This document shows, piece after piece, positions 231 to 9,422 of a DNA stretch of 38,127 nt (position 1 is its first letter; each line of letters starts with the position of its first letter). The translations under genes and the position numbers were made by a program. Source of the DNA: Dethiobacter alkaliphilus. GTDB lineage: Bacteria > Bacillota > Dethiobacteria > DTU022 > UBA8154. The DNA is taken from contig JAENYV010000008.1 of NCBI GenBank assembly GCA_016841605.1, forward strand, positions 1 through 38,127. Reading direction: 5' to 3'. The notes beneath the pieces were generated by a model. It did not search any database, had not been told where the DNA came from, and saw only the letters and a program-made list of their open reading frames with translations.

Positions 231-260
231 GTTTACAATTATATAATTATTTGATAAACT
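231..260 (+). promoter_or_regulatory. Sigma-A promoter of the TRAP operon
   Basis: TTTACA (232-237) is followed after 17 bases by TAAACT (255-260). This pair is chosen because it aligns exactly with the stronger promoter of the facing redox operon (TTTACA-N17-TATAAT at 9288-9260). An alternative in the same place is TTTACT (218-223)-N18-TATAAT (242-247). Either start leaves a leader of roughly 300 bases before the first ATG at 566. Confidence 0.5.
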
Positions 261-270
261 TAAAACATAG

Positions 271-291
271 CTTGTCTGATAGGTCGACAAC
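271..291 (+). promoter_or_regulatory. Putative operator shared with the redox operon
   Basis: An imperfect dyad TTGTC-N9-GACAA (272-290) begins 11 bases after the proposed -10. The same element sits at the same distance from the -10 of the minus-strand redox operon (9249-9229), and 16 of 21 bases agree. Its position over the expected transcription start fits a repressor site. The FadR-type GntR regulator encoded at 3939-4658 is the obvious candidate binder, but that is inference. Confidence 0.55.
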
Positions 292-565
292 TGCAATCAT
301 TTATGGCGTTTCTTATCGTCGGTCTCTAAAGCGTTCTTTTAATCTAATCAATTTAAACTTTTTAATGTTTAAATAAAATTATAAAGGGGGGAGAGGCTTA
401 TTAAAAAAAACTTAAACGAGCAGTTACCGTGTAGGATAGGATGTGTATTTAGAAGTGAAGTGGTATACGTACTTTTGGAGGCATTTTAAACGGGTCCAAA
501 AAATATTTTACCATAAAAAAATATTATAATCTTTGTTAACTAAATTAGAAAGAAGGTATATTTAA
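292..565 (+). other. Long AT-rich 5' leader of the TRAP operon
   Basis: About 270 bases separate the putative operator from the first start codon. I see no recognisable riboswitch and no convincing small gene. A TGGTATAC element lies at 461-468 and is repeated in front of the GntR gene (3880-3887). A purine-rich run (GGGGGGAGAGG) near 385-396 resembles a ribosome-binding site but has no usable start codon after it. Confidence 0.4.
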
Positions 566-1770: not shown

Positions 1771-2256
1771 ATGAAATTTTTTATTAATTATTCCTTAAGA
1801 ATCGTTCAGATAATTAATTGGTTAGCGGGACGGGCCGTAGCCCTTACTATGGGCTTGGTAGTTATTAATATCGTTCTTCGTGTTTTTGGCATGCCAATAG
1901 GGGGAACTTATGAATGGGTCGGCTTTCTTACAGCCTTAGCTATTGGCTTATCCTTAGCTCATTGCGAATCGCAAGATGGACATGTTGCGGTTACCATCTT
2001 CATGGAAAAATTACCACCTAAGTTTCAACACATAACAGATATTTTTACAAAAATTATAGTTTTAGTGTTTCTAATTATCACTTTCCGGGAAACTATATCC
2101 TATGCCAACAGTACAATAGTTGCAGGAGAAATAGCTCAAACTACTAAGGTACCTATTTATCCTTTCATTTACATACTAGCTTTTGGTTTTATAGCTTTTG
2201 CCCTAATTATCATAACTAAAATGCTAGAAACCATTAGAAAGGCGGTAGGAAATTGA
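1771..2256 (+). CDS. TRAP transporter small permease, DctQ family
   Basis: This small membrane subunit (about 161 residues) pairs with the large DctM permease in TRAP transporters. The translation shows four hydrophobic segments and the family-typical stretch around IGGTYEWVGFLTALAIGLSLAHCE, followed by a charged loop with GHVAV. I place the start at ATG 1771 (MKFFINYSLRIVQ), preceded by AAAGGG eight bases upstream. The earlier in-frame ATG at 1738 lies inside a hairpin stem and has no ribosome-binding site. The end overlaps the TTG start of the dctM gene, so the two are probably translationally coupled. Confidence 0.88.
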   Translation: MKFFINYSLRIVQIINWLAGRAVALTMGLVVINIVLRVFGMPIGGTYEWVGFLTALAIGLSLAHCESQDGHVAVTIFMEKLPPKFQHITDIFTKIIVLVFLIITFRETISYANSTIVAGEIAQTTKVPIYPFIYILAFGFIAFALIIITKMLETIRKAVGN

Positions 2257-3560
2257 GTCCATTATTTGCTGGTATCATTGGCGTAATAGGTTTTTTAATA
2301 CTTATGGTTATCAGAATGCCTATTGCTTTTTCCATGGCAGTGGTAGGCTTTTTAGGTTTTAGTTACCTTGTCTCTACAGAAGCGGCTTTGAGGGTAGTTG
2401 CCAAGGACTTTTACGGCATGTTTTCTTCTTACTCTCTCAGTGTTATCCCTATGTTTGTCTGGATGGGTTTTCTTGCTTTTCATACAGGTGTCGGATCAAA
2501 ACTTTTTTCTATAGCTTATAAAATTTTAGGTCGTCTCCCTGGCGGTCTTGCCATAGCAACACAGGCAGCCTGCTCGGTTTTTGGTGCAGTTTCCGGATCA
2601 AGCCCTGCAACTGCAGCTACCATAGGTGCCATTTCACTACCCGAAATGAAAAAATATCAGTATAGCTCTGCCTTAGCTACAGCCAGCGTTGCCTCAGGCG
2701 GTGCAATAGGAATTATGATTCCACCAAGCGTAATATTTGTACTTTATGGAATAGCTACTGAACAATCCATAGGCAGGTTGTTTCTGGCAGGTATTTTGCC
2801 CGGTATTTTGTTAACAATTTCATACATAACAGCCATCCTTATTGTTACTACTCGCAATCCTAAACTCGGACCCGCAGCATCTATAGAAAACTTAAAGAAT
2901 ATTCCGTTTTCTTTAATGGGATTAGTGGATATTTTCGTTATCTTTGTAATTTCTTTAGGTGGTCTTTTTGCCGGCATTTTTACTCCTACCGAGGCAGGCG
3001 CAGTAGGAGTTGCCTCTGTATTTATTGTAAGTTTTTATAGAAAACAACTAACATCAGAAGCTATTAACCGTTCTTTAATGGATACAACTAAAACAACGGC
3101 AATGATAATGTTTCTTATCGCAGGTGCTACTATATTCGGACGATTTATCGCTGTTAGCCGAATCCCATTCGAACTGGCTAGTTGGTCAAGTAATCTCCCT
3201 TTTCCCCCATTCGTGATATTTATAATAATACTATTAATCTATTTTGTTTTGGGTTGCTTTATTGATTCAATGGCATTAATACTCCTTACGATTCCAATTT
3301 TCTATCCTGTTGTGGTAGAAACACTTAATTATGATCCTATATGGTTTGGCGTTATGATTGTCATGGTCACTACTATAGGAGTTATTACCCCGCCGGTGGG
3401 TATGAATGTTTATGTAATAAAAGGAGTTGCTAAAGACGTTCCCTTGGAAGTTATTTTTAGTGGCATATGGCCATTTTTCATCGCTGCTTCAATCAGCAGT
3501 CTTATTCTACTTATTTTCCCGCAAATTGCAACGTTTTTACCTAATTACTTAATGCCCTAA
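2253..3560 (+). CDS. TRAP transporter large permease, DctM family
   Basis: This is the 435-residue main transport subunit of the TRAP system, a sodium- or proton-driven secondary transporter of the ion transporter superfamily. It has about a dozen hydrophobic helices and the family hallmark GAVSGSSPATAATIGAISLPEM near residues 110-130, with a related inverted motif (TPTEAGAVGV) in the second half. The start is TTG 2253, with GGCGGTAGGA as ribosome-binding site, overlapping the end of the dctQ gene by four bases. Length and motifs indicate a complete protein. It works with the binding protein at 566 and the small permease at 1771. Confidence 0.93.
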   Translation: MSPLFAGIIGVIGFLILMVIRMPIAFSMAVVGFLGFSYLVSTEAALRVVAKDFYGMFSSYSLSVIPMFVWMGFLAFHTGVGSKLFSIAYKILGRLPGGLAIATQAACSVFGAVSGSSPATAATIGAISLPEMKKYQYSSALATASVASGGAIGIMIPPSVIFVLYGIATEQSIGRLFLAGILPGILLTISYITAILIVTTRNPKLGPAASIENLKNIPFSLMGLVDIFVIFVISLGGLFAGIFTPTEAGAVGVASVFIVSFYRKQLTSEAINRSLMDTTKTTAMIMFLIAGATIFGRFIAVSRIPFELASWSSNLPFPPFVIFIIILLIYFVLGCFIDSMALILLTIPIFYPVVVETLNYDPIWFGVMIVMVTTIGVITPPVGMNVYVIKGVAKDVPLEVIFSGIWPFFIAASISSLILLIFPQIATFLPNYLMP

Positions 3561-3865
3561 TGCCGATGCTAATGCAAACCGGTAACAATAGTTCTTTTCC
3601 CAAGCTCCAAGCTTGGTTAGATGGCATTTATAAGTGCCGCCAACTTTTTTATAAGGCCGTTAATATTTATTCTCCTCTTTTAATAGCAGCAGGGCCTGTG
3701 CGGGTATGTGGGCAACGCCGCTTTTATTGTTGTCCAAGTGGGCGTGGAACTCGCGGGGTAGCACTGTCTCTGGAGGTTATCCGCAAATCCACGCCCGCGG
3801 TATATCCATGTATAAGGACATAAGGCCGGCCTAAATTATCGGCGATGACTGCAGATTAGCATTGC
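3561..3865. other. Non-coding gap with GC-rich inverted repeat
   Basis: No credible gene lies here. The open frame directly after the dctM gene has no similarity I recognise and no ribosome-binding site. A GC-rich patch (about 3690-3835) differs from its AT-rich surroundings and carries a perfect 9-bp inverted repeat (3740-3748 with 3788-3796, TGGGCGTGG / CCACGCCC type) plus the palindrome GGCCGGCC near 3822. It may be a decayed gene fragment or the 3' structure of the TRAP transcript. Confidence 0.35.
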
Positions 3866-3899
3866 TTGACTATCGAATATGGTATACAATTTTGGTATG
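3863..3899 (+). promoter_or_regulatory. Promoter/operator of the GntR regulator
   Basis: TTGCTT (3863-3868) is 16 bases from TACAAT (3885-3890), giving a weak sigma-A promoter. TGGTATAC (3880-3887) overlaps the -10, and a second TGGTAT starts 13 bases later (3893). Related FadR-subfamily regulators such as UxuR and NanR bind TGGTATACCA- or GGTATA-type sites, so autoregulation is plausible. The same TGGTATAC octamer is in the TRAP leader at 461-468. Confidence 0.4.
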
Positions 3900-3938
3900 A
3901 AAATAACTGGAGTTAAAAAATGGAGGTTAAAGAACTTT

Positions 3939-4658
3939 ATGTTCGTTAAAGCCAGAGAGAAAAAACTTTATGAAGAAGTTGTCAAACAAATAAAATATTT
4001 GATTAATACAAAACAGCTCAAAGATGGCGACATGCTCCCTTCCGAAGATGAATTGTCAAAAAGTATAGGTGTAAGCAGGGCAACAGTCAGGGAAGGCTTA
4101 AGAATTTTGGAACTGTTGGGCCTAGTGGAAACAAAAAGAGGAAAAGGTACTTTTGTCAGAATAAATAACCTGGAGTCTTTTAAAAACAAGTTGGGTCATA
4201 GCCTTGACTCTATTGGTATGGATTCCTATTATGTACATGAAATTGATAGGCTACTGGAACCTAGTGTGGCAAGACTTGTAGCACAAAAAGGTAAAGACGA
4301 GGAGATACAAAAAATTAAGCTTGCCCTTGAAAAAATGGAAGAATCAATTAATAAGGGCGAATCAGGTGAAGATGAGTCTCTTTACTTCCACAAAGTTATT
4401 ATTGACGCACTTAACAATCCCATATTGAATTCAATATTTGAGTTGACCAGGGAGATACATGAACGGGGTCGCAAAATTGTGCTGAATCTACCAAACCGGG
4501 CTCAGGAAACTTTAAAAGAACATTATAAAATATATGAAGCTATTCGAGATAGAAACGCTAACAAAGCCTATCAATATATGGAAAGACATCTAACAAGAGT
4601 AAGCGATACATATGATAAAATTTTTATTCTTAAAAACTTCAAAGAAATCGATAAGTAA
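3939..4658 (+). CDS. GntR-family transcriptional regulator, FadR subfamily
   Basis: This is a DNA-binding regulator with a winged helix-turn-helix at its N-terminus and an all-helical FCD effector domain. The N-terminal block LPSEDELSKSIGVSRATVREGLRILELLGLV is the GntR signature, followed by the wing KRGKGTFV. The rest (about 85-235) has the acidic and His residues (HEIDRLLEP, SLYFHKVII) common in FCD domains that bind carboxylates or a metal. I favour ATG 3939 with GGAGG at 3922-3926; an earlier in-frame start at 3879 lies inside the promoter. Placed between the TRAP operon and the facing redox operon, it probably controls both. The ligand is unknown but likely the transported acid. Confidence 0.9.
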   Translation: MFVKAREKKLYEEVVKQIKYLINTKQLKDGDMLPSEDELSKSIGVSRATVREGLRILELLGLVETKRGKGTFVRINNLESFKNKLGHSLDSIGMDSYYVHEIDRLLEPSVARLVAQKGKDEEIQKIKLALEKMEESINKGESGEDESLYFHKVIIDALNNPILNSIFELTREIHERGRKIVLNLPNRAQETLKEHYKIYEAIRDRNANKAYQYMERHLTRVSDTYDKIFILKNFKEIDK

Positions 4659-4744: not shown

Positions 4745-5212
4745 TTAATAAAACCAAGCTGAAGGTCCCTTTCCCAAATGAGAAGGATTAAGAAGCAACA
4801 TTGATACCTGCGACTCAGGTTCCAGAGGAGGGTGCCCCGCTGGGAGTTCCACTAATGCGTTGCAACCGATAAGGGAGCACAGCATACTATTTTTCTGACC
4901 CGGCTGTAATCTTACGCTCCATCCATCTTGATAGCAGGTGGCAAATCCCCGGAGAAAGCGGCGAGGTCCCCCTTGCTTCGGAAAAGGGTCAATACACAAA
5001 GCAGAAAAACGATATAGATAAGGGTTAAGGGCCTGCATGGCACGTATGATAGGAGCTGCTAGAAGTTGATAACCCACCGCACAGGCCCCCGGGTTTCCGG
5101 AAAGGGATATAATAGGCTTAGATTCCCTAATGGCCGCCGGTGTGACCGCCCGGCTTGATTCTAACACCCCAGAATAGTATATCTGCTCAATTTTCTTAGC
5201 TCTGATGGAGCA
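4745..5212 (-). pseudogene. moeA C-terminal remnant (molybdopterin molybdenumtransferase)
   Basis: The reading frame encodes only the last ~155 residues of a MoeA-type protein, which normally has about 400 residues and inserts molybdenum into molybdopterin. Visible blocks are the active-site segment KPIISLSGNPGACAVGYQLL and the C-terminal domain IV (GWSVRLQPGQKNSMLCSL, then NALVELPAG). The frame is open from 5212, where a TGA precedes it, and the ferredoxin gene ends only 45 bases upstream. The N-terminal two thirds are therefore missing, not frameshifted. A GTG at 5167 could start a 140-aa product, but it lies mid-domain and I see no ribosome-binding site. It lies last in the molybdoenzyme operon, which suggests the operon once carried its own cofactor gene. 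Confidence 0.75.
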
Positions 5213-5256: not shown

Positions 5257-5781
5257 TTATCTCCGGTTCGTTACTTTGTGAACACCGCTCACAATATTGC
5301 CGACAAATTTAAATTCTTTTTCGCCCAGCACTTTGTTAATAGATTTGAACTGCAAGGCTCCGGTAGGACATACCCGCACACAGGCGGGCTGGAGTCCCGC
5401 CTCAACTCTTTCCGAACACAGATCGCATTTCTGCATCTTTTCCTCTAAATCGTAACGGGGTACTCCAAAAGGGCAGGCCAGGGCACAACTGTGGCACCCG
5501 ATACACAGGTCGCCGTTTACTATTACCGCTTTAGTCTGCCGATCTTTCGTTATTGCCCCCGTTGGACAGCCCATTATACAAGGACTGTCCGCACAGTGCA
5601 AGCAGGCTGCGGATACATACAGGAAGCTGGTATTAGGAAATTGCCCCTCTTCCATTGTGTAAATTCTTCTATAAGCAGGTTGGCCTTTTTCAGGAAAAAT
5701 ATCGTTCTGATCCATACAAGCCACCACACAGGCACCACATCCGCAACAAAGGTTTATATCCAGATATATTGCTTTTACCAT
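5257..5781 (-). CDS. Four-cluster 4Fe-4S electron-transfer subunit of a molybdoenzyme
   Basis: This 174-residue ferredoxin-like protein is of the DmsB/PhsB/HycB type. It carries electrons between the molybdopterin subunit encoded just upstream and the FAD/NAD subunit. Four cysteine groups are visible in order: CCGCGACVVAC near the N-terminus, CLHCADSPCIMGC, CIGCHSCALAC and CDLCSERVEAGLQPACVRVC. These give sixteen cluster cysteines and four [4Fe-4S] clusters. There is no signal peptide, so it acts in the cytoplasm. The ATG at 5781 follows AAAGGTGAT and lies 11 bases after the molybdoenzyme stop, indicating one operon. Confidence 0.9.
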   Translation of the reverse strand: MVKAIYLDINLCCGCGACVVACMDQNDIFPEKGQPAYRRIYTMEEGQFPNTSFLYVSAACLHCADSPCIMGCPTGAITKDRQTKAVIVNGDLCIGCHSCALACPFGVPRYDLEEKMQKCDLCSERVEAGLQPACVRVCPTGALQFKSINKVLGEKEFKFVGNIVSGVHKVTNRR

Positions 5782-5792
5782 CAGTAATCACA

Positions 5793-7949
5793 TCACCTTT
5801 CTGAAACCTTTTCAACCTTGCATAAAGCAGCCTTAAATCCTGGGTAACCGGAAAGCGGATCAAAATAATCGCCTTCAAATAGTAAATTGACGTCAGCATT
5901 CGGATGTCCGTGGTACATGTGGATAATACCCGGCTGGATCATCTGAGTCAGATTTGCTTTAACCTCAATAGCATCCTTAGGTGTTGATATACGGATCACG
6001 TCGTCCTGTTTAATCCCCAGGCGAAGAGCATCTTCCGAGTTTATGTCCACAGAAGGAAAGTTCGGTCTGAGACTGCTCGTCCATGTGAGCCGGTAAGTCC
6101 GCGTGTGGATAAACATCGGCAGTCTTGAACCTGTATTAAGTATAAACGGATATTCTTTCGCCAACTCCGGAGCCGCCTCTTTGCTGAACTTGGGAGGTTT
6201 ATAAACCGGCAGGGCTTCGAAACCCGGTCTCCCCTCATATTTTTCAATAATTTTAGATTTGAATTCCATCTTTCCGGATGGTGTTTTAAAACCTGTTTTG
6301 AGGTATTTCTTTTCCGGCAACTGCTGGGGTTTTGGCGTAAACATACCGCTTGGGTGTTTTTTAAGTTCCGTCAAGGTAATGCCGCTAGGCTCAAGGATCC
6401 AGTCGATGCCGGCTTCATAACCGGCTTTAAAAAGTGAATCATCTAGCCCGAGTTTGTTTGCCAATCCATAAATAATGTCCGCGGCGGGGCGGGAATCGTA
6501 GAGGGGTGGAATAGCCGGCTGTGTATAGATAATGTATCCTAAATCATAGCAACGAAGCTCGCTAAGTTCCACAGAGGTACATGTCGGCAACACAATATCC
6601 GCATATTTGCAGGTCTCAGTCATGAATATATCTACGTTAACAAAGAAATCCAGCTTGTTTAAGCTGTCCAACATACCCTTGGAATCCGGCCACATCCGGT
6701 AATTAAGGCCAAAACCGATTACTGCTTTTATTGGGTAAGGTTCCCCGGAACGAATATGGTATGGTAGCTGCATGGCCTGACCCTCTTCATCAATTACATC
6801 AACCCAGACAGGGAACCTATCTGCGCCAATTCTCGGCGGCATATCGTCCCAGGACTTGGGCTGGACAAATTCATGTTCCCGGGTCCGGATAAATGCAGCC
6901 CTGTGGAGAAAGCTGGGAGTTTTAACGTAGTTGCCGCCAATGATATCGTAATTTCCGGTAAGACCAACCAAGGAAAAGATGGCTCGGTAGTTTTGTACAC
7001 CATTGGTATGGTGCACCACTGATGAAGCGCTCGGCAAAATGGCAGCCGGCTTAAAAGAGGCATACATCCGTGCAGCGGCTCTAATCTTATCAGCTGGAGC
7101 ACCTGTCAATTCTTCACCTTTTTCAGGTGTAAACAACTGAACATATTCCTTGTATTCTTCAAAACCATAAGTATGGTTAGATGTAAAATCCTGATCGTAC
7201 AGCTTTTCATTTATGATTACATAGGCCATCGACAAGGCCAGGGCACCGTCGGTACCCGGTCTTACCTGTAGATGAATATCAGCATGTGCTGTCGTTGGGG
7301 TCTCCCTGGGATCCACAACGATAAGCTTCATACCCCTTTCCTTTCCTTTTAGAATCGCTCTAGCATCACCCGGGTTGGTATAAAACGGGTTAGAGCTCCA
7401 AACCAGGAGACAGTTGGTATTGGCCAAATCCGGTCCACCCGGACGACCAAAGACAAGCTTTTGAGACAATGCTGTTGCTTGGTAGCAAACGCTGGATTCT
7501 GATATATAGTTGGGTGAGCCGAAAGAATGGGCCAGACGCTTAAGATAGGGCCTGAAGTATTTAGCATAACCGGAATAGAAAGCCACGCTTTCCGGCCCGC
7601 ATTCATTCTTGATATCATTAAATCCGGCAGCAATGGTTTCCAGGGCTTCATTCCAAGATATTTGTTCGAATTTCCCGGCTCCTCTGGGTCCGGTCCTTTT
7701 TAATGGCGTTTTAAGACGGTCTTCATTATAAACATACTGGCGGGTAGCTGCGCCCTTGGAACACAAAGTACCTTTGCTGTACGGGTTTTCTTCACTACCT
7801 TCAACCTTGATAATTTTTCCGTCTTTAATATAAAGATCTAGACCACATTGGGTTCGAGGATCGCAGATTGTACAAATTGATTTCCGGATTTCAATACCTG
7901 TCTCAGGGGTAGGAATCTTCTTTTTCAACAGCCGTTGGACATCCTTCAC
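5793..7949 (-). CDS. Molybdopterin oxidoreductase, DMSO reductase superfamily
   Basis: This 718-residue catalytic subunit binds bis-MGD molybdenum (or tungsten) and one [4Fe-4S] cluster. The N-terminal cluster motif is C26-x2-C29-x5-C35 with the fourth cysteine at C63 (GTLCSKGA). Cys155 in SESSVCYQA is in the position of the metal ligand seen in formate dehydrogenase and nitrate reductase types. The middle carries the usual MGD-binding blocks (WSSNPFYTNPG, VVDPRETPTTAHAD, VRPGTDGALALSM) and the C-terminus the molydop_binding domain (about 590-715). There is no twin-arginine signal, so it is cytoplasmic. It sits between an FAD/NAD oxidoreductase and a ferredoxin subunit, forming a likely NAD(P)-linked complex. 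The subgroup resembles uncharacterised MopB proteins; I cannot name the substrate. Confidence 0.9.
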   Translation of the reverse strand: MKDVQRLLKKKIPTPETGIEIRKSICTICDPRTQCGLDLYIKDGKIIKVEGSEENPYSKGTLCSKGAATRQYVYNEDRLKTPLKRTGPRGAGKFEQISWNEALETIAAGFNDIKNECGPESVAFYSGYAKYFRPYLKRLAHSFGSPNYISESSVCYQATALSQKLVFGRPGGPDLANTNCLLVWSSNPFYTNPGDARAILKGKERGMKLIVVDPRETPTTAHADIHLQVRPGTDGALALSMAYVIINEKLYDQDFTSNHTYGFEEYKEYVQLFTPEKGEELTGAPADKIRAAARMYASFKPAAILPSASSVVHHTNGVQNYRAIFSLVGLTGNYDIIGGNYVKTPSFLHRAAFIRTREHEFVQPKSWDDMPPRIGADRFPVWVDVIDEEGQAMQLPYHIRSGEPYPIKAVIGFGLNYRMWPDSKGMLDSLNKLDFFVNVDIFMTETCKYADIVLPTCTSVELSELRCYDLGYIIYTQPAIPPLYDSRPAADIIYGLANKLGLDDSLFKAGYEAGIDWILEPSGITLTELKKHPSGMFTPKPQQLPEKKYLKTGFKTPSGKMEFKSKIIEKYEGRPGFEALPVYKPPKFSKEAAPELAKEYPFILNTGSRLPMFIHTRTYRLTWTSSLRPNFPSVDINSEDALRLGIKQDDVIRISTPKDAIEVKANLTQMIQPGIIHMYHGHPNADVNLLFEGDYFDPLSGYPGFKAALCKVEKVSER

Positions 7950-7950
7950 A

Positions 7951-9204
7951 CTATTTCACCTCCGTTAGGATTTTTTTTATTAACATATTCTGAACTATAG
8001 GTAGAGAGTGGGAATAAACAGGGTTGTTATTGATTAAACTGTTAATCAGTGCGTTTTTTATAACACCAGCTTCTGTGTAAGTATCTATGAAGTTTGTACC
8101 GATTAAAAAACCATTTTTCCAGAAAAACTGTATAAACATCTTACCGTCAAATTTTTTCTCCATTTTGTCATAGTTGTTAACGTCTCCTATGCCCACAAAA
8201 TCCATACCCATAAAATGAGTTATGTTATGGGGAATGTTACCAGGAAATGTCTCATCAACTCCGGCCATATTTCTTCCTGCGGTACGTCCTTGGTAACGGG
8301 CATTAGCCCATAAACCGATTATCTGCCGTTCTCCCGAAAGCGTGTTTTTACCTTGAGCCACATCCCCAGCGGCGTAAAGTCCTGGTACATTTGTTCTCAT
8401 TTGTTCGTCTATCAGAATTCCCTGTTTAACCTCAACTTGCTTTTGATCGATAAAATCGGTATTGGCCCGAACACCGATACATATAACCAAAAGATCGGCT
8501 TCTTCACTTTCATTGCTATTTTTAAAAGATGCTTTTACACCCCGAGCAGTCTCCTCCACTTTCTCTAATGCAGCACCAAATCTTAATTTTATTCCCTTTT
8601 TAATTAAACGATTTTCTATTACCTGGGCACATTCGGGATGAGCAGCAAGGGGAAAGATATGCCCGGCTAAATCGGCCAGGCATACTTCCATTCCTTGCTG
8701 ATAAAAAAGCTCCACCATTTTGATTCCGATCATTGAAGCACCGATTACCAGAGCTTTCTCAGGTTTCTCCAGCAATGCTTCTCTAAGTCGAAAGGCATCA
8801 TCTACTTTCCTCATGGTATATACCCTGTTGGACTCTATACCTTCAATGGGGGGTAAAAAAGGAGAACCTCCCGAAGCTATCAGGCACTGGTTGTATTTAA
8901 GCTCAAGACCGTCCTCGTTGACTACTATTTTCTCTTCATGATCCAGGGTAACCACAGGTGAAGCGGGATGGACATGCGCTCTGTATTTTTTGTAAAGCAG
9001 GTCTTTACCATAGGGAAAAAGCTGGTCAAAGGTGATTTTTCCCGCTACATAATAGGTAGTGAGCATGGGGTTATATATGGGCCACTTACTATCCGTAAAG
9101 ATGTGGATTTCACCACTATAACCGCTCTCCCGAAGAGCCTTTAAACATTCCGCACTTGCACATCCATTGCCTATTATGGCAATTTTTTTTCTGCCTGTAA
9201 GCAA
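7951..9204 (-). CDS. FAD-dependent NAD(P)H oxidoreductase subunit
   Basis: This 417-residue pyridine nucleotide-disulfide-type flavoprotein resembles the FAD domain of NirB and NADH:rubredoxin reductases. It shows an N-terminal FAD Rossmann motif (IIGNGCASAECLKAL), an NAD motif in the middle (ALVIGASMIGIKMVELF) and the second FAD contact GLYAAGDVAQG around 290. It has no CxxxxC redox pair. The start is TTG 9204 after an AGGGATGA ribosome-binding site; the nearby ATG at 9211 is out of frame. It is the first gene of the minus-strand operon, one base from the molybdoenzyme start, and probably links that enzyme to NAD(P)(H). It is paralogous in type to the protein at 15618-16985. Confidence 0.88.
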   Translation of the reverse strand: MLTGRKKIAIIGNGCASAECLKALRESGYSGEIHIFTDSKWPIYNPMLTTYYVAGKITFDQLFPYGKDLLYKKYRAHVHPASPVVTLDHEEKIVVNEDGLELKYNQCLIASGGSPFLPPIEGIESNRVYTMRKVDDAFRLREALLEKPEKALVIGASMIGIKMVELFYQQGMEVCLADLAGHIFPLAAHPECAQVIENRLIKKGIKLRFGAALEKVEETARGVKASFKNSNESEEADLLVICIGVRANTDFIDQKQVEVKQGILIDEQMRTNVPGLYAAGDVAQGKNTLSGERQIIGLWANARYQGRTAGRNMAGVDETFPGNIPHNITHFMGMDFVGIGDVNNYDKMEKKFDGKMFIQFFWKNGFLIGTNFIDTYTEAGVIKNALINSLINNNPVYSHSLPIVQNMLIKKILTEVK

Positions 9205-9228
9205 TAATCATCCCTACTTTTAAATGTA

Positions 9229-9249
9229 GTTGTCTACTTGTCTGACATG
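9229..9249 (-). promoter_or_regulatory. Putative operator of the redox operon
   Basis: Read on the minus strand, this element matches 16 of 21 bases of the one at 271-291 and starts 11 bases after the -10, exactly as in the TRAP promoter. It also contains the palindrome TGACATGTCA (9242-9251) on its upstream side. A repressor bound here would cover the early transcribed region. Confidence 0.55.
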
Positions 9250-9259
9250 TCATATTTTG

Positions 9260-9288
9260 ATTATATCATATATTTGTTAAATTGTAAA
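9260..9288 (-). promoter_or_regulatory. Sigma-A promoter of the redox operon
   Basis: On the minus strand TTTACA (9288-9283) is followed by a 17-base spacer and a perfect TATAAT (9265-9260). Transcription should start near 9253, giving a leader of about 50 bases before the TTG at 9204. Confidence 0.7.
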
Positions 9289-9392
9289 CTAAAATAACAA
9301 CATGAATATTTGTTTTTATCTCTCCTTTTGAAGCTCTATACGGTATTTAGACACATTGACCTAGCTTAGTCCGCTGGGCTAGAAGAAAGTAC

Positions 9393-9422
9393 AAAAAAGC
9401 TCACCAGACATAAGCGGTGAGC
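9393..9422 (-). terminator. Intrinsic terminator of the minus-strand gene at 9458
   Basis: GCTCACC (9399-9405) pairs with GGTGAGC (9416-9422). On the minus strand the stem is followed by a run of six U (complement of 9393-9398). This is a standard terminator placed about 35 bases after the stop codon. Confidence 0.75.

Follow-up and report, generated by a model that had tools for sequence, protein, structure and literature searches.

A probable 65-base promoter/operator module in two inverted copies ahead of a TRAP transporter operon and a convergent molybdoenzyme operon of Dethiobacter alkaliphilus

SiaR, which governs sialic-acid uptake and catabolism in Haemophilus influenzae, is an RpiR-family protein that acts with CRP on the intergenic region shared by divergent operons, and the transport operon under its control encodes a TRAP system. 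In the FadR subfamily of GntR regulators, the common box is TKGT-N2/3-ACMA, and a palindrome with an extra half-site 7–12 nt from its centre is common for GntR-family sites (PMC4494728). The locus described here resembles the local FadR-subfamily regulons of LldR, GlcC and DgoR (Suvorova et al. 2015, PMC4494728) in that the regulator gene lies among its probable targets, operator-like palindromes of GTC/GAC half-sites lie at the promoters, the site is common to several operons and extra half-sites nearby are common.

Gene content and operon layout

The window (the whole stretch of DNA analysed, 38,127 nucleotides) is the first 38 kb of a 229.5-kb contig (C22) from a genome of 4.07 Mb. From left to right, it carries dctP, dctQ, dctM and gntR on the + strand, followed on the − strand by the genes of an FeS subunit, a molybdoenzyme and an FAD oxidoreductase. 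The TRAP operon and the FAD-Mo-FeS operon are convergent, with gntR between them. The features are as follows:

566 to 1666, + strand: dctP, TRAP solute-binding protein (PF03480, E 1.2e-42; nearest solved structures 4pgn, 4nap and 4n6d)
1738 to 2256, + strand: dctQ, TRAP small permease subunit (PF04290, E 8.5e-23)
2253 to 3560, + strand: dctM, TRAP large permease subunit (PF06808, E 1.1e-93)
3622 to 3645, + strand: terminator-like hairpin in the interval between dctM and gntR
3939 to 4658, + strand: gntR, regulator of the FadR subfamily with GntR HTH and FCD domains (PF00392, 66.7 bits; PF07729, 81 bits)
5257 to 5781, − strand: DmsB-like 4Fe-4S electron-transfer subunit (PF13247; best NCBIfam model dmsB, below cut-off)
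5793 to 7949, − strand: catalytic subunit of a DMSO-reductase-family molybdoenzyme (PF00384/PF01568/PF04879)
7951 to 9204, − strand: FAD/NAD(P)-dependent oxidoreductase subunit (PF07992, E 2e-54)
9399 to 9422, − strand: terminator-like hairpin and T run ending the gene upstream of the FAD-Mo-FeS operon

The DctP, DctQ and DctM proteins of a TRAP transporter are all encoded within one operon. The molybdoenzyme has the molybdopterin, dinucleotide-binding and Fe4S4 domains, which places it in the DMSO-reductase family, and it scores below all the listed NCBIfam equivalog cut-offs (formate dehydrogenase, PhsA, DmsA, etc.), the best being TIGR01591 with 320 of 666 bits. As the hairpin and T run at 9399–9422 end the upstream gene, the FAD-Mo-FeS operon would start its own transcript; likewise, the hairpin at 3622–3645 suggests that gntR may have a transcript of its own. 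The ATG at 3939, which is preceded by GGAGG, is a likelier gntR start than 3879. Directly behind the FeS gene, an ORF (4745–5167, − strand) matches only the MoeA C-terminal domain (PF03454, 28.6 bits) and is probably what remains of a truncated moeA of the FAD-Mo-FeS operon.

Two copies of one probable promoter/operator module

The regions ahead of the two operons contain the following elements:

231 to 295, + strand: module copy 1, ahead of the TRAP operon, 48/65 identical to copy 2
232 to 260, + strand: sigma-70-like promoter TTTACA-17-TAAACT with extended −10 TG (9/12 hexamer match)
272 to 292, + strand: operator-like block TTGTCTGATAGGTCGACAACT, counterpart at 9248–9228
9225 to 9289, − strand: module copy 2, ahead of the FAD-Mo-FeS operon
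9260 to 9288, − strand: sigma-70-like promoter TTTACA-17-TATAAT with extended −10 TG (11/12 hexamer match)
9228 to 9248, − strand: operator-like block ATGTCAGACAAGTAGACAACT, counterpart at 272–292

Both copies have sigma-70-like hexamers 17 nt apart, although shuffled sequences give at least as many such matches as the region does, and their extended −10 elements read TG-A-TAAACT (TRAP) and TG-A-TATAAT (FAD). The −10 of the TRAP copy (TAAACT) is weak, and a slightly better promoter-like match, at 218–247, overlaps this promoter. In both copies the block begins 11 nt past the −10, a few bases past the expected transcription start; a candidate site placed over the early transcribed region would fit repression. 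The sequence-only reading had put all these elements in register, which holds for TTTACA, the 17-base spacing, the −10 and the position of the dyad, whereas the dyad is exact in copy 1 only (TTGTC...GACAA): copy 2 has ATGTC...GACAA, and its inner TGTCAGACA is a better palindrome. From the block to the dctP start codon it is about 270 nt, and an unusually long leader (about 300 nt, 267–565) separates the module from dctP. An Rfam search of the window gave no match, and hence none in this leader.

Aligned without gaps, positions 231–295 (+) and 9289–9225 (−) are identical at 48 of 65 bases, the longest exact run being 10 bases; counted per 20 bases, the agreement is 16, 13 and 15 inside the module and 8 and 10 just outside it, and then falls to background. 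After dinucleotide shuffling of the two upstream regions (500 pairs), the best match was 39/65 and the mean 33.5. In a second control, 123 promoter-like sites with 17-nt spacing, drawn from the window and further parts of the genome, were aligned on their hexamers (7,479 pairs): the mean identity was 21.7/65 and the next best pair after the module pair reached 35/65. Realignment and these controls confirm the match and its fading on both sides, as first reported from the sequence.

The bare dyad TTGTC-N9-GACAA was rejected as evidence, as it is no commoner than chance (5 in the genome, fewer than the 13 of its reversed control, the four outside the module all lying within reading frames), and the case rests on the longer block. 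A dyad no commoner than chance would favour a convergence of two AT-rich sigma-70 promoters with chance-similar half-sites and no shared regulation, as would the fact that AT-rich promoter pairs of the same genome are somewhat alike (mean 23/65). Such a convergence is nevertheless scarcely credible given the gap between 48 and the next best 35 and given the operator columns, 16 of 21 of which are identical between the copies, versus a mean of 6. The columns outside the −35, TG, −10 and dyad are conserved too: 22 of 32 are identical, versus 11.0 ± 2.4 with shuffled letters (P about 1e-4) and 9.4 ± 2.7 in AT-rich promoter pairs. Because these non-core bases are also conserved, common descent is indicated instead of convergence, and the two 65-base segments are almost certainly copies of one module.

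The module is also specific to these two promoters. The 21-mer WTGTCWGAYARGTMGACAACT, with at most 3 mismatches, has exactly two sites in the 4.07-Mb genome, both in the module promoters (272–292 and 9248–9228); as the pattern was built from both sites, these matches are trivial and the information lies in the absence of a third site. The reversed control of the 21-mer occurs once. This genome-wide search had been proposed earlier as a check, and its outcome is decidedly non-random. Likewise, blastn of positions 215–310 against the whole genome found the second copy with an E value of 7.8e-6; the next match (C19, E 0.0075) was rejected as a module copy, since it covers the AT-rich promoter part alone, without the operator. 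None of the 97 other class genomes contains the 20-base core of the element with 2 mismatches or fewer, and the three matches among 398 genomes of the phylum at 1 mismatch are all in reading frames, none being outside coding DNA. The claim of a copied control module common to the two operons is therefore well supported: the similarity is far above chance, unique in the genome and extends to non-core bases.

The copies could also be viewed as terminal inverted repeats bounding a mobile or composite element of 9 kb, their promoter look being secondary. They are indeed inverted and flank a convergent gene island, the similarity ends sharply on both outer sides, and the island as a unit is absent from the relatives examined. 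However, the outer flanks (TACTATTAATA and TAAAATAACAA) show no direct repeat that would correspond to a target-site duplication, no recognisable transposase or integrase is encoded by the island ORFs, the in-register promoter elements at both ends point into genes, and the Mo operon stands alone in another genome of the genus (G052). A transposon with terminal inverted repeats was rejected, as neither target-site duplication nor transposase was found, and the mobile-element origin is very unlikely.

The candidate regulator

The protein encoded between the operons combines a GntR winged HTH with an FCD effector domain, as do members of the FadR subfamily, and scores best with the NanR and LldR models, below cut-off. 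At positions 28 and 59 of its HTH, in the numbering that we take from the FadR alignment, it presumably carries Asp and Gly. These residues correlate with G/C at the second base of TKGT (PMC4494728), where the module has T, which speaks against GntR as its binder. Copy 2 has the form of a palindrome with an extra half-site, its inner palindrome being followed by GACAA. In the 3-nt register, ATGTCAGACAA of copy 2 is 1 base off TKGT-N2/3-ACMA and TTGTCTGATAG of copy 1 is 2 off, GACAA following both; in the 2-nt register, AGGTCGACAA is 1 off and AAGTAGACAA 2 off. The module element was not found upstream of gntR (best 12/21 in 3561–3960), so that autoregulation via this element is not seen. The best GntR identities were 35% in 71 genomes of the order, 39% in 398 genomes of the phylum and about 33% in plasmids; because no orthologue exceeds 39%, phylogenetic footprinting yielded nothing. 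A scan of the loci of GntR homologues (L036–L042 and L072–L083) for TTGTC-N-GACAA gave nothing consistent. Ahead of the likely gntR start, positions 3880–3905 (TGGTATACAATTTTGGTATG) contain one TKGT-N2-ACMA box without mismatch together with a second GGTAT, and could be an autoregulatory site of gntR.

A functional module might instead be bound by another transcription factor encoded elsewhere, GntR controlling something else, perhaps itself via TGGTATACAA (3880–3889). That gntR has no upstream module copy, that TGGTATACAA matches TKGT-N2-ACMA perfectly, as the module does not, and that several other GntR-type genes are present in this genome would all agree with such a factor. Yet TKGT-N2-ACMA boxes are also common in the coding DNA of the island, which makes TGGTATACAA weak evidence for an operator of gntR. 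Moreover, more than two sites would be expected of a global regulator, and a 21-mer found only twice fits a local one. Rex, the usual redox candidate, binds an 18-bp site (TTGT-N10-ACAA), one base shorter than that of the module. Control by a factor encoded elsewhere is thus rather unlikely, and GntR, judged by its location and family, is probably the regulator of the module. The earlier implication of GntR holds as far as the location and family of gntR are concerned; the partial fit of the element to the FadR-subfamily box and its absence before gntR weigh on it.

The following model can be proposed. One promoter-operator module would have been duplicated in inverted orientation, so that a single regulator would govern dctPQM as well as the convergent FAD-Mo-FeS operon and the two would be co-expressed. 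Sigma-70 RNA polymerase would start just ahead of the 21-base block, and a protein bound there would prevent initiation or escape. That protein would most likely be the FadR-subfamily (FCD) GntR encoded between the operons, keeping both promoters repressed in the absence of the imported organic acid or its product; once this ligand is bound by the FCD domain, GntR would leave the DNA, and uptake would be induced along with the NAD(P)H-linked molybdoenzyme step. The module copies, their uniqueness, the promoter-like elements and the gene families are direct observations. Shared control of the two operons is very likely, and the joint statement of a copied module, shared control and GntR as regulator is favoured, if moderately. 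The locus is best read as a private regulon of two promoters that arose by promoter duplication.

Uptake, redox conversion and comparison with known systems

Orthologues of the molybdoenzyme are found in G052 (81% identity), L055 (75%) and L056 (59%), then at about 45% in L057–L060. On the same strand as the FAD gene and just ahead of it, L055 carries a TAXI-type TRAP transporter (gap of 100 nt) and L056 a CitMHS/DASS carrier (gap of about 80 nt); in G052 (L033) a YeiH-like carrier lies 400 nt upstream of the FAD gene. That unrelated transporter families occupy the same place argues for uptake plus redox conversion without recourse to the operator, and makes this a recurrent pairing around related FAD-Mo-FeS operons. 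The earlier claim of one substrate-specific pathway is indirectly supported by these orthologous operons lying directly behind other transporters. Alignment of the promoters across genomes, also proposed as a check, went against conservation in the one close orthologous locus: the element is absent ahead of the FAD gene of G052, where a different promoter-like sequence is found. This genome also has no close GntR (best 27%) and no close DctP (best 43%), and the joint absence of element, regulator and transporter agrees weakly with the model.

Several neighbouring observations concern substrates. In DctP (566–1666), the ligand site has EIG (EIGVTGGE) where Ile-Arg is usual (EIR in the aligned paralogues of L129 and L130); this subgroup, with EIG-T-G instead of EIR, is found in several genomes, and the change hints at an unusual ligand. 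A paralogous DctPQM of the same genome, with a DctP of the same Arg-less subgroup, lies behind a molybdenum-hydroxylase operon (L132). L129 (G000:C13:128000-147000) carries a second TRAP operon with an indolepyruvate-oxidoreductase-like pair, two AMP-forming ligases, a 2-hydroxyacid dehydrogenase and an FCD-type GntR, and likely encodes an aryl keto acid pathway. The 45%-identical molybdoenzymes of L057 and L059 have nearby genes for a URO-D-like methyltransferase and RACo (in L057 by ORF similarity), as in corrinoid O-demethylation systems.

No paper on this gene set came up in a literature search. Tentatively, the FAD-Mo-FeS unit may be a soluble molybdoenzyme, NAD(P)H-linked and as yet uncharacterised, that acts on an organic acid or heterocycle; unrelated families (TRAP, TAXI-TRAP, DASS, YeiH-like) would repeatedly have replaced its transporter, the separate operons being recoupled here by copying of the whole promoter-operator. 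The locus defines a small testable regulon: should a single protein bind the two sites, its inducer would name the substrate of the molybdoenzyme and of the TRAP transporter. It is also a clear candidate for regulatory coupling via promoter duplication; in relatives, a transporter gene immediately precedes the enzyme genes.

The kind of system is ordinary. Compared with the LldR, GlcC and DgoR regulons, the box deviates here from TKGT-N2/3-ACMA and is missing before gntR, and the operons are convergent and not divergent (PMC4494728). Two separate promoter copies lie 9 kb apart here, in place of the one shared intergenic region on which SiaR acts; what the two systems would have in common is a catabolic regulator in control of both the transport and the catabolic operon, as published for SiaR (PMC2946308). 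The molybdoenzyme shares its catalytic domains, Fe4S4 domain and DmsB-like partner with enzymes of the DMSO-reductase family (thiosulfate reductase 2vpw, formate dehydrogenases, acetylene hydratase 2e7z), has about 37% identity or less to the other homologues of the order, the G052 orthologue excepted, and, unlike those enzymes, is paired with an FAD/NAD(P) subunit from the same operon.
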